A stretch of DNA of 64,000 nt from Methanococcoides burtonii DSM 6242 (lineage in GTDB: Archaea > Halobacteriota > Methanosarcinia > Methanosarcinales > Methanosarcinaceae). Positions 1 through 25,792 of the stretch are shown here, in pieces. The stretch is from assembly GCF_000013725.1 (NCBI RefSeq), contig NC_007955.1:62001-126000 (forward strand). The letters run 5' to 3'. The notes under the pieces were generated by a model. That model did no database searches, was not told where the DNA came from, and was given only the letters and a program-made list of their open reading frames with translations. Position 1 is the stretch's first letter; every line of letters begins with the position of its first letter. Made by a program: the position numbers and the translations under genes.

Positions 1-522
1 ACAAAATTCGTCATAGCCTAATTTTTTTGCCTCATTTACAAAGATAGCTCTTGAACGTTTATGATTTTGTTTGGGCATAATTATGTAAGCAAAAAATTTG
101 TAAAGAATCATATAATTGATAATTTTTTTAAATTTTATTGCTAAAAAAAGTAAAAATCTTGTTCTTATGTTGAATTTGATGATACCCCCACCCATTATCA
201 ATGAATTTATTTTTTCAGGATAGAGTACAGCAAATCGCAGGCATATCAGTGAACTAAAAGAAAAGCCTACAAAATGAGATGTTTTAATTTTGTAGTGATC
301 TAATGTATTATTTATAAAGATGCATACATTATCAAGGTTAAGTTCTTCATTTATTTTATTTTTGTGCATTTCCAGCACAAGCAGATTATAATGTTTTGAA
401 AAGAATTCTATTTGTTTCTTCCAGGTTCTTGCACTGCCTCCAAAACCATGAATAAAAGTAATCCACTCAACAGAATCACCCGTATAGTAAACTTCGGCAT
501 CAAACCTTTTTTCTTCTGCCAT
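1..522 (-). CDS. Alpha/beta hydrolase, C-terminus beyond left edge
   Basis: The minus strand is open from an ATG at 522 to the window edge (174 codons). The translation has an HGFGGSARTW oxyanion-loop motif near residue 25 and a GFSFSS nucleophile elbow near residue 85, the serine of an alpha/beta hydrolase. The acid and histidine of the triad would lie outside the window. The start overlaps the last 23 bases of the upstream radical SAM gene, so the two are probably translationally coupled in one operon. Substrate unknown; esterase or lipase-like by fold only. Confidence 0.75.
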   Translation of the reverse strand, partial: MAEEKRFDAEVYYTGDSVEWITFIHGFGGSARTWKKQIEFFSKHYNLLVLEMHKNKINEELNLDNVCIFINNTLDHYKIKTSHFVGFSFSSLICLRFAVLYPEKINSLIMGGGIIKFNIRTRFLLFLAIKFKKIINYMILYKFFAYIIMPKQNHKRSRAIFVNEAKKLGYDEFC

Positions 523-1786
523 CGGTTATTCCTTTCTTAAATGCAAGGTACTTCAAAAATTTAGGGAAGTTTTTTTGGTTATGCTCTGGCATTTTTTTGA
601 ATAGTTCATCGGCCTTTTCCCCCCATTCTTCAGCCCTTTCAAAACTTTTCTTTGCAAGATCCTCAGGTGATTCCGGATTGGACAAATGGGTCGATCTCGC
701 ATCCCCTTCATTAACCACATCAATAATTGCCTGAGGATTATCTATTAACGGACAGGGTCTTAATGGGTTTTGTGAAAATGGTTGTGCAGCCCTGAATGCA
801 GTGAAAAATTTAGACCTGAGAGCTTCAGCAAGTGATACTTCGTGTATGTTTGAATCTGAATAGTGACAAAATGCACAGGGTTCAACGTCCCCTTTAGCAT
901 TAATGTGAACAAAACCAATGCCTGCAGCAAGGCAACCAAACGCTAAGTGACCATTATTCCAAAAATCAATAATTACATAGTCGTGTTTTACGCAGTAATC
1001 CCTGATCTTTTCCTGGACATATGCTCTTTGTTCGGCAGTACATACCAAAGAAGTATCCGCAGTACTTCCCACTGGAATATATTGAAATAACCACCCAAAC
1101 CAGGCACCTTTTTCGCGCATATAATCAAGAAATTCATCACTAGCTATGGTTTTGTAGTTTTTAGAATGATAGCAAGCTGAAAAAGCAAATGCAATCTCTC
1201 TGGACTTCAAAATATCCATAGATCTGATCGCTTTATCATAAACACCCGCCCCTCTTCTAAAATCATTCTCTTCTTTCGTCCCTTCAATACTTATAAAAAC
1301 ATTTAAATTCCCTAATTTAGCCATTTCATCGGCAAATTCTTCATCGATCAAAGTGGCATTCGTAAATGCTCCGAATGTCATTTTGTCATGTTTTTTGCAT
1401 AATTTAAGGATATCTTCTTTCCTTAGTAGAGGTTCGCCACCTGTCATTAAGCAATCCATTATCCCTAAATTTTCAGCTTGATCTAATATATCATCAAACT
1501 TTTTATATGAAATATTATGGCCACTTTCGTAATCTTGGGACCAGCAACCCTTACACTTCAAATTGCAGTCACTGGTTGGATCAACAAGAAGAACTCTTGG
1601 AATAGAACTTTTATTTTTAAATCCATTATATAGCTCTTTTAAGGTAACGAAATTGCCCATGGTCAAATGAGTCGTTAGCCTTTTCGCTAAAAAGAATTGC
1701 TTACACCTATAGATGTAAGCTTTGTGATGCGGAAATGGAGGAATTTCTTCCTTTTTTCCATTTACCATTAAATGTTTCAGTTGCAC
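500..1786 (-). CDS. Radical SAM protein with C-terminal extra cysteines (SPASM-like)
   Basis: A 428-residue protein. The CxxxCxxC cluster motif is C74, C78 and C81 (DCNLKCKGCW), followed by TGGEP at 115-119, the standard 4Fe-4S/SAM-binding signature. Further cysteines at C285, C304, C307 (PCAFC) and C345 suggest an auxiliary cluster of the SPASM/Twitch type, typical of peptide- or protein-modifying members; this is inference. The called start is GTG at 1786, which overlaps a GGAGGA motif; ATG at 1768 (residue 7) is an alternative. It lies 11 bp after a membrane protein gene and overlaps the hydrolase start. Substrate unknown. Confidence 0.88.
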   Translation of the reverse strand: MQLKHLMVNGKKEEIPPFPHHKAYIYRCKQFFLAKRLTTHLTMGNFVTLKELYNGFKNKSSIPRVLLVDPTSDCNLKCKGCWSQDYESGHNISYKKFDDILDQAENLGIMDCLMTGGEPLLRKEDILKLCKKHDKMTFGAFTNATLIDEEFADEMAKLGNLNVFISIEGTKEENDFRRGAGVYDKAIRSMDILKSREIAFAFSACYHSKNYKTIASDEFLDYMREKGAWFGWLFQYIPVGSTADTSLVCTAEQRAYVQEKIRDYCVKHDYVIIDFWNNGHLAFGCLAAGIGFVHINAKGDVEPCAFCHYSDSNIHEVSLAEALRSKFFTAFRAAQPFSQNPLRPCPLIDNPQAIIDVVNEGDARSTHLSNPESPEDLAKKSFERAEEWGEKADELFKKMPEHNQKNFPKFLKYLAFKKGITDGRRKKV

Positions 1787-1797
1787 TCCTCCAATCC

Positions 1798-2532
1798 TTA
1801 CTTTTCAGTTACAGAGACTTTCTGAGGAATAACTCCATCAAAAACAAATTCACCATTTGAATTCGATGTTAAACTATTGATCTCAAGACCCGGAACAACC
1901 GTATAAATTCTAGGGAAGTAATCTTCCATTACACTTACGCTTTCGTCAGACATGTATTTAGTTGGAAGCGAAGCAGGTCCAAGCTTGAATGATTCCGGTT
2001 GTGCACTCAATTGGTTATTTGTAATGCTAATCTGTCCTTTGCTATAGATATTTAAGGTATTTGGTAACGGAATAGGGACATCATCTACAACATCTGAATA
2101 TAGATCAGCTTTAAGCCTTTTTATATCAGCCGTACTCGATCCTTCCATAGTCCCATCAGGTGAAACTTTTACTTGCAGATCATCAAACCACCAAAATGCA
2201 GGTGCGATCTCATTTAGCAGAGCTGTTGATTCCTCTGCAGTTAAAGTAAATTCTTTTCTTTCATATTCTGAGAATTCAAAATTATAATCATTAATTGATT
2301 CTTTTGGCGCATTTTTTTTATGTTCTTCTAATGCTTCACCAGTTAACCCATTATATTCTATTTCCATACCAGTTTTTTCCAAAGCACTCAGATAATCCTC
2401 GTGGGTATATTCAACCCCCAGATCTTTAGGACTGATCAATGAAAAACTTGCATATACTGAAAATGCGCTACCTATTATCAAGATAAAAACCACTGCAACT
2501 AAATACTTTAGTTTACCCTTTCCTTCACTCAT
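1798..2532 (-). CDS. Hypothetical membrane-anchored extracytoplasmic protein
   Basis: A 244-residue protein with one N-terminal hydrophobic segment (about residues 10-30) after a Lys-rich start, then a soluble domain rich in Asn, Ser and acidic residues. There is no lipobox cysteine, so it is probably a signal anchor or cleaved secretory protein. I do not recognise the family. It is the first gene of a minus-strand trio with the radical SAM protein and hydrolase, 11 bp apart, so it may be the substrate or carrier of the radical SAM system. A GGTGATAT ribosome binding site precedes the ATG. Confidence 0.7.
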   Translation of the reverse strand: MSEGKGKLKYLVAVVFILIIGSAFSVYASFSLISPKDLGVEYTHEDYLSALEKTGMEIEYNGLTGEALEEHKKNAPKESINDYNFEFSEYERKEFTLTAEESTALLNEIAPAFWWFDDLQVKVSPDGTMEGSSTADIKRLKADLYSDVVDDVPIPLPNTLNIYSKGQISITNNQLSAQPESFKLGPASLPTKYMSDESVSVMEDYFPRIYTVVPGLEINSLTSNSNGEFVFDGVIPQKVSVTEK

Positions 2533-2914
2533 TATATCACCTACCCATTATTCTACTTCAGTCATAACTATTTTATTTCTATGCTACTTAAGTTAGTGAC
2601 TCTACATTATAACTTAAGTATAATTGGAATCGTATTTATTTTCTACTATAATTTAAAAAAGTATAATAGTATACCGAATAATAGAATATGTCATTATATT
2701 GATTAAAACGTTCAATAATCCAAAAATAGATACGAAACCCTGCTTTTGGCCATAAATTTAACTTGAAATTACGAATTTTTATTTAGAATTGATCTTTTGT
2801 TAGTGAAGAATGAAATGTAAATATTGGAAACGAAATACAATAATATTTTTAAATTTGATTATTGTCCAAATATTGAGGATTTTTACAGAGCCAGAATTTT
2901 GTAAGGGAAGATCC

Positions 2915-25124: not shown

Positions 25125-25733
25125 TCAGCAAAGATCGAATCGGTTCAGATCTTCAAGAGTATTAATATTAATAAGGCTCTTAAGCTGAGGATCGAATACC
25201 TTTAGCAACTCAATGTCAACCTGTAAAACATCATCCAACTCAAAGACAGGTGCCAGTATAAATTTTTTGTTCGACCGTATGGAACTTTCAATTAGAGGTA
25301 ACATAGGTTCAACGCGATACACACTACACAAAGACTCCATTGAACCGTCATTGTGTATAGGGACCGCAGCATCGTGCCCTCCTGCACTACGGAACATGAA
25401 CTTCACGACCTCCTTGTCAATGAAAGGCATATCACAAGCTGTTACAAAGATGTATTCGCCTTTCGCTCTTTTAAATCCTTCAAGCATACCAGCAAGTGGA
25501 CCTACGTCCTGATAGGTATCGAAAACCATCTATTTCCCACATGCATAGTCTGCAAGCTCCTGTGCCTGCCCCTCATCCCTTACAGAAACTATGATATCAT
25601 CTACGACATCCTCAAGCATGCCAATTGTATGCTCAAGTAAAGACCTGCTGTCACTACACCGTAGAAGCGACTTCTCCACATTTCCAAGACGCCTGCCACG
25701 CCCACCTGCAAGAATAAGTGCTGATAAGCTCAT
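25125..25733 (-). CDS. mobA: MobA-like molybdopterin nucleotidyltransferase with in-frame amber codon
   Basis: Read through one TAG, this is a 202-residue MobA-type guanylyltransferase that adds GMP to molybdopterin. Seen: the nucleotide-binding ALILAGGRGRRLGNVEKSLL at the N-terminus, GPLAGMLEGF, then VTACDMPFID, the metal-binding DMPF motif. Codon 68 is TAG (25530-25532) between ADYACGK and MVFDTYQDVG, with no frame change and full homology on both sides. In this lineage TAG can encode pyrrolysine, so the gene may yield a full-length Pyl protein, two fragments, or be a recent nonsense mutant. The second part begins with its own ATG but lacks the P-loop-like motif. Confidence 0.85.
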
Positions 25734-25792
25734 CAGGTTCTAATTTAGAATATTAGTACATATAAGTAAGCCTGGAAGCAAAAGGCATTAAT

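Follow-up and report, generated by a model that had tools for sequence, protein, structure and literature searches.

Pyrrolysine proteins within and beyond methylamine metabolism

The closest described counterpart of the gene analyzed here is Thg1, the tRNA-His guanylyltransferase of Methanosarcina acetivorans, in which an amber codon confined to that one species is read as pyrrolysine (Pyl) and is dispensable for activity (Heinemann et al. 2009, as related in PMC2933860). By the time of that 2010 review, Pyl had been physically confirmed in just one natural archaeal protein other than the methylamine methyltransferases, namely Thg1 (PMC2933860). In the latter group, comprising MtmB, MtbB and MttB, Pyl is catalytic and the amber codon is conserved. 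Neutral drift has further been put forward as the origin of UAG codons in genes of T. potens and M. acetivorans (PMC3639795), and an earlier screen whose coverage included M. burtonii tabulated methyltransferases (PMC1242214).

Here we describe an in-frame amber codon in a mobA homologue of the cold-adapted methanogen Methanococcoides burtonii. As with Thg1, the codon occurs in one species, the protein is not a methyltransferase, and the orthologues carry ordinary residues at the site. The two cases differ in that Pyl was physically observed in Thg1, whereas in MobA it is predicted, and in that MobA is the only copy in its genome, should be indispensable for core energy metabolism, and has a companion in a second such gene, ahbC. 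With MtmB, MtbB and MttB, MobA would share the identical pylTSBCD system for decoding UAG in the same genome, but the position in mobA is variable and its amber is found in a single species. The mobA case resembles Thg1, not the methylamine methyltransferases, and adds the prediction that core cofactors depend on Pyl on any substrate. The cases of PMC3639795 are similar in that amber drift was proposed in otherwise ordinary genes; the method used there needs homologues that also contain UAG, and a single-species case such as mobA is therefore invisible to it. Both earlier screens (PMC1242214, PMC3639795) would probably have missed the mobA amber. In a literature search that covered subscription papers in part, Pyl was described for neither MobA nor AhbC, and an earlier prediction is possible.

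An in-frame amber codon in an otherwise intact mobA

The window, the whole stretch of 64,000 nucleotides that was analyzed, corresponds to bases 62001-126000 of the single-contig 2,575,032-bp genome of M. burtonii, to which other Methanococcoides genomes are closest, including those of M. seepicolus and M. vulcani. An earlier note on this DNA had described codon 68 as a TAG within an otherwise intact 202-residue MobA-like gene, and we could confirm both coordinates and frame: the 202-codon frame on the minus strand (25733-25125) is intact, ends in TGA and contains one in-frame TAG (Table 1), with no other lesion in its 609 bases. Reading with Table 11 breaks the gene into ORFs of 67 aa and 134 aa; in the read-through frame, the surroundings of codon 68 are CGK-Pyl-MVFDTYQDVGPLAG. 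The locus is syntenic and orthologous in a sister genome (G008), where the neighbours are identical and mobA is uninterrupted. No Shine-Dalgarno match was found at the mobA start, and the position of the TATA-like sequence TTATATGTA suggests a near-leaderless transcript.

Table 1. Coordinates of the mobA features (window positions) and of the two further amber-containing genes.
Feature	Location	Strand	Remarks
mobA, molybdenum cofactor guanylyltransferase homologue	25125..25733	-	202 residues with TAG read as Pyl
In-frame TAG, codon 68	25530..25532	-	column 2nd of 193 in variability
ATG codon (Met69), adjoining TAG on its 3' side	25527..25529	-	possible, weak reinitiation site
N-terminal part, codons 1-67, with LAGGRGRRLG nucleotide-binding loop	25533..25733	-	extent of amber-terminated product
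C-terminal part, codons 69-202 and TGA, with GPLAGM and ACDMPF	25125..25529	-	purifying selection, terminal branch omega ~0.14
TATA-like sequence TTATATGTA	25757..25765	-	24-32 nt upstream of mobA ATG
ahbC	genome 1188049-1189251 (L062:3049-4251)		TAG L062:3265-3267
GNAT acetyltransferase	genome 808032-808580 (L068:18032-18580)		TAG L068:18317-18319, inside continuous PF13302

Two further observations concern other loci. About 2.6 kb at window positions 1-2598 recur in inverted orientation, with 98% identity, at genome positions 147865-150462, and both copies hold a 434-aa radical-SAM-like frame; a recent duplication or a mobile element is likely. In addition, a MinD/ParA-like ATPase frame (IASGKGGTGKT; L041:1108-1260, minus strand) seems to run on in another frame, making a frameshift possible.

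Next, we evaluated the identity of the protein. MobA sequence had been claimed on both sides of the TAG in one frame, which is borne out by a gapless alignment and by two family models that extend across the amber. In a Pfam search, PF12804 (NTP_transf_3) spans residues 5-146 with an E value of 1e-31, and the best NCBIfam model, TIGR02665 (MobA), covers residues 4-196 with a score of 95.8 bits. As this score is below the equivalog cut-off of 151.85, we term the protein a MobA homologue and infer its function. The NTP_transf_3 fold and the MobA motifs are present along the whole protein, and 52 of 53 near-invariant family columns are kept; the sole departure, P134S, falls in the conserved EPL motif and is unique to the MobA of M. 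burtonii. An AlphaFold model (mean pLDDT 92.9), for which the window protein plus 27 relatives served as input, had solved MobA structures among its top Foldseek hits; the closest solved structures are those of MobA from Archaeoglobus fulgidus (3ngw, TM 0.83) and E. coli (1e5k). These two enzymes have the same fold and the active-site motifs LAGGxGxRLG, GPLAGM and CDMP at ~22-29% identity, and no amber codon is known in either. The predicted role of the homologue is GTP-dependent guanylyl transfer to molybdopterin. Contrary to the placement of the amber in the middle of a loop, residue 68 in the model opens a strand (68-71) that follows a loop at residues 61-67.

Because UAG and AUG adjoin, ribosomes might stop at codon 68 and restart at Met69, such that fragments 1-67 and 69-202 together would form a split MobA. 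The anti-SD pairing upstream of ATG69 (-3.9 kcal/mol) is in the range of real starts, but 28% of random ATGs show pairing as strong, which corresponds to chance level. Moreover, all ten Methanococcoides sequences have Met69, and the others among them have no TAG; it is therefore older than the TAG and was not born as a start. According to the model, the break would cut a single Rossmann-like domain, and no AUG adjoins the TAGs of ahbC and the GNAT gene described below. We consider termination followed by reinitiation very improbable.

Decoding capacity, site tolerance and constraint on a single-copy gene

The earlier note had suggested a search for pylT/pylS/pylBCD elsewhere in the genome, and the full set was found: pylT (tRNA-Pyl, anticodon CUA), pylS, pylB, pylC and pylD are clustered at genome positions 2186375-2190747, with PylS, PylB, PylC and PylD each scoring above the family cut-off. 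Two mtmB genes contain one TAG each, as expected, and together with the complete pyl set these ambers show that the genome decodes UAG. As a terminator, TAG is scarce: of the 397 long ORFs in a 465-kb sample, it closes 11. Once transferred to E. coli, the M. burtonii PylS decodes amber codons with very high activity (PMC13335545), and M. acetivorans reads UAG in an introduced reporter as Pyl at 20-30% with no special context or element (PMC2933860). Downstream of the mobA TAG, we detected no PYLIS-like or special RNA structure beyond chance (z -0.2).

We then compared codon 68 among relatives, as the earlier note had proposed for Methanosarcinaceae orthologues. The TAG is specific to M. burtonii, with no close relative having one at this position. 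Three sister species have GAA (Glu), rather than the CAG or AAG from which the TAG had been thought to arise, and other Methanococcoides have CAA, AAG or AGA. Across 30 orthologues the column contains K, T, E, I, D, Q, P, R, A, N and V, ranking 2nd of 193 by entropy, which agrees well with the claim that the site tolerates any residue; orthologues in which site 68 is E, K, Q or R are conserved and presumably active. An amber in one lineage, facing varied residues in the orthologues, is the pattern of a neutral Pyl site, and not that of a catalytic one, for which the amber is conserved at a functional position.

A fresh nonsense mutation or a sequencing error would likewise place a TAG in the M. 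burtonii genome alone. UAG would then only terminate, the sequenced strain would have lost mobA function recently, and its MobA would be missing or replaced. P134S, lying in a conserved motif, is compatible with such a loss. Against it, the strain is equipped with a working system for decoding amber, the 609 bases hold no further lesion, and the TAG fell on one of the most tolerant codons: of the 28 other M. burtonii mobA codons one step from TAG, none is at a column as variable, so that the chance of a random nonsense mutation landing on the most tolerant such codon is ~1 in 29.

To quantify constraint, a codon model was run on ten Methanococcoides mobA sequences. Over the whole gene, omega on the M. 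burtonii branch is 0.20 versus 0.12 elsewhere, a difference that is not significant, and omega=1 is rejected (p ~0.02). After the TAG, omega is 0.14, again with omega=1 rejected (p ~0.02) and with no difference from the background, indicating purifying selection. The N-terminal part shows a higher omega (0.56 vs 0.16, not significant) and, taken together with P134S, this could hint at relaxed constraint on mobA. As the TAG is found in one genome and is perhaps younger than the branch, the test averages over pre-TAG time and is therefore supportive, not decisive.

Within the genome, only the window gene matches the MobA family. As a possible backup MobA we evaluated the two short NTP_transf_3 proteins ranking next and rejected them, both scoring as CobY-like, and the second intact mobA that the earlier note had named as a point to check is thus not present in the genome. 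Two formylmethanofuran dehydrogenase B genes (fwdB/fmdB) are intact, as are mobB and moaA. MobA adds GMP to molybdopterin, yielding the guanine-dinucleotide cofactor of formylmethanofuran dehydrogenase, which works in methyl-group oxidation. With mobA as sole copy and the dehydrogenase as its user, a dead mobA should therefore abolish the oxidative branch of methylotrophic methanogenesis, a step that we base on known pathways. The absence of another MobA and the persistence of two intact dehydrogenases with the rest of the pathway both speak against a nonsense mutation or an error. Within the family, MobA and FwdB are both present in every sampled genome that is at least 99% complete, and two genera (g9 and g10) are without both. 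This joint absence agrees with Methanimicrococcus, for which joint loss of fwd/fmd and moaABC/mobAB has been reported (PMC9723798).

Further interrupted genes and the possible reach of pyrrolysine

A second single-copy cofactor gene with a species-specific in-frame TAG, ahbC, surfaced in the moaA search. AhbC is 12,18-didecarboxysiroheme deacetylase, an enzyme of heme b synthesis, and the protein scores 759.8 bits against TIGR04546 (cut-off 650). The read-through context of its amber is NELTT-Pyl-QGK. In each of the 18 genomes tested we found a single close orthologue (77-97% identity), and the TAG occurs in M. burtonii only; relatives have Glu or Asp at the site, including a GAG codon in M. 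seepicolus that is one step from TAG. For the part of ahbC that follows the TAG, the M. burtonii branch has an omega of 0.036, and a 2 delta lnL of 58 units rejects omega=1. The genome has no other close AhbC, and heme b synthase AhbD is intact. The gene stands in line behind two ORFs that, judged by eye from sequence, resemble uroporphyrinogen methyltransferase and uroporphyrinogen synthase.

Interrupted genes were sought by comparison between frames in the 465-kb sample, equal to 18% of the genome. Internal TAGs spanned by a Pfam domain were found in mobA, ahbC and a GNAT acetyltransferase gene, the last being a candidate third non-methylamine Pyl protein. Among the TAA interruptions scanned in this sample, no assignable non-transposon case is spanned by a domain, and the candidate TAA/TGA interruptions are tandem genes, transposases, and stretches to which no family could be assigned; in those scanned, no domain other than those of transposons crosses the stop. 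Part of the TAA/TGA control was scanned and the rest assessed by eye, and the stretches with ahbC and mtmB had been picked for their TAGs; this control is therefore indicative only. One transposase-like gene is present in two copies (L066:2661-3794; L069 near 1318) with an identical internal TAA, and this interrupted copy seems to have spread.

Outside the family, a distant mobA in a MAG (G041:C162:12076-12660) also has an internal TAG, for which the sister codon is CAG. We rejected convergent Pyl use as its explanation because no pylS was detected in this MAG (94% complete) and the site is a different one; the TAG is probably a nonsense mutation or an assembly error. For M. burtonii, the MAG counts in favour of a nonsense mutation, as it shows that mobA TAGs, be they nonsense mutations or assembly errors, occur without Pyl. 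On the other side, ahbC repeats the pattern under strong selection, such that two single-copy cofactor genes would need to have been struck. Weighing these points together with those above, we regard a nonsense mutation or sequencing error in mobA as unlikely.

The amber could alternatively be regulatory, with readthrough gauging Pyl supply, and hence the methylamine state, and cofactor output deliberately tied to methylamine growth. MobA output would follow the supply of Pyl-tRNA if the UAG is read, and the dehydrogenase acts in methyl-group oxidation. However, the TAG is conserved in no relative, no special RNA structure follows it, and the recurrence of such TAGs in ahbC and the GNAT gene is more in keeping with drift than with a designed switch. 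Of the explanations considered here, we hold a regulatory amber to be the least credible.

Very probably, then, codon 68 of mobA drifted to TAG at a tolerant site, and amber readthrough with Pyl would yield a functional full-length MobA. This is in line with the proposal of Pyl insertion at a neutral site in the earlier note, which gains support from the pyl genes, the single mobA, the variable codon 68 and the TAG in ahbC. On the M. burtonii branch, a codon at which almost any residue is accepted would have drifted to TAG, after which Pyl-tRNA would read the mobA UAG by ordinary amber suppression and insert pyrrolysine. The expected products are active full-length MobA plus some of the 67-residue truncated form, and Pyl in MobA would be tolerated without a catalytic role. 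Beyond readthrough and MobA activity, we infer a dependence on the pyl genes, as the Mo/W cofactor (through mobA) and heme b (through ahbC) would hang on them on every growth substrate.

By extension, we lean slightly towards the view that Pyl has become entrenched: through neutral drift in at least mobA and ahbC, the pyl system, known for its role in methylamine use, would have become essential on every substrate, methanol included. M. acetivorans tolerates the loss of pylT on methanol; for M. burtonii, the prediction is that pylS/pylT are needed for growth on methanol. If true, such genes are hidden by standard annotation as split ORFs or pseudogenes, and Pyl in the sole copy of an energy-metabolism gene, and in heme synthesis as well, would represent a dispensable code expansion made indispensable by drift. 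The core metabolism of M. burtonii, beyond methylamine use, would then rely on an expanded genetic code.
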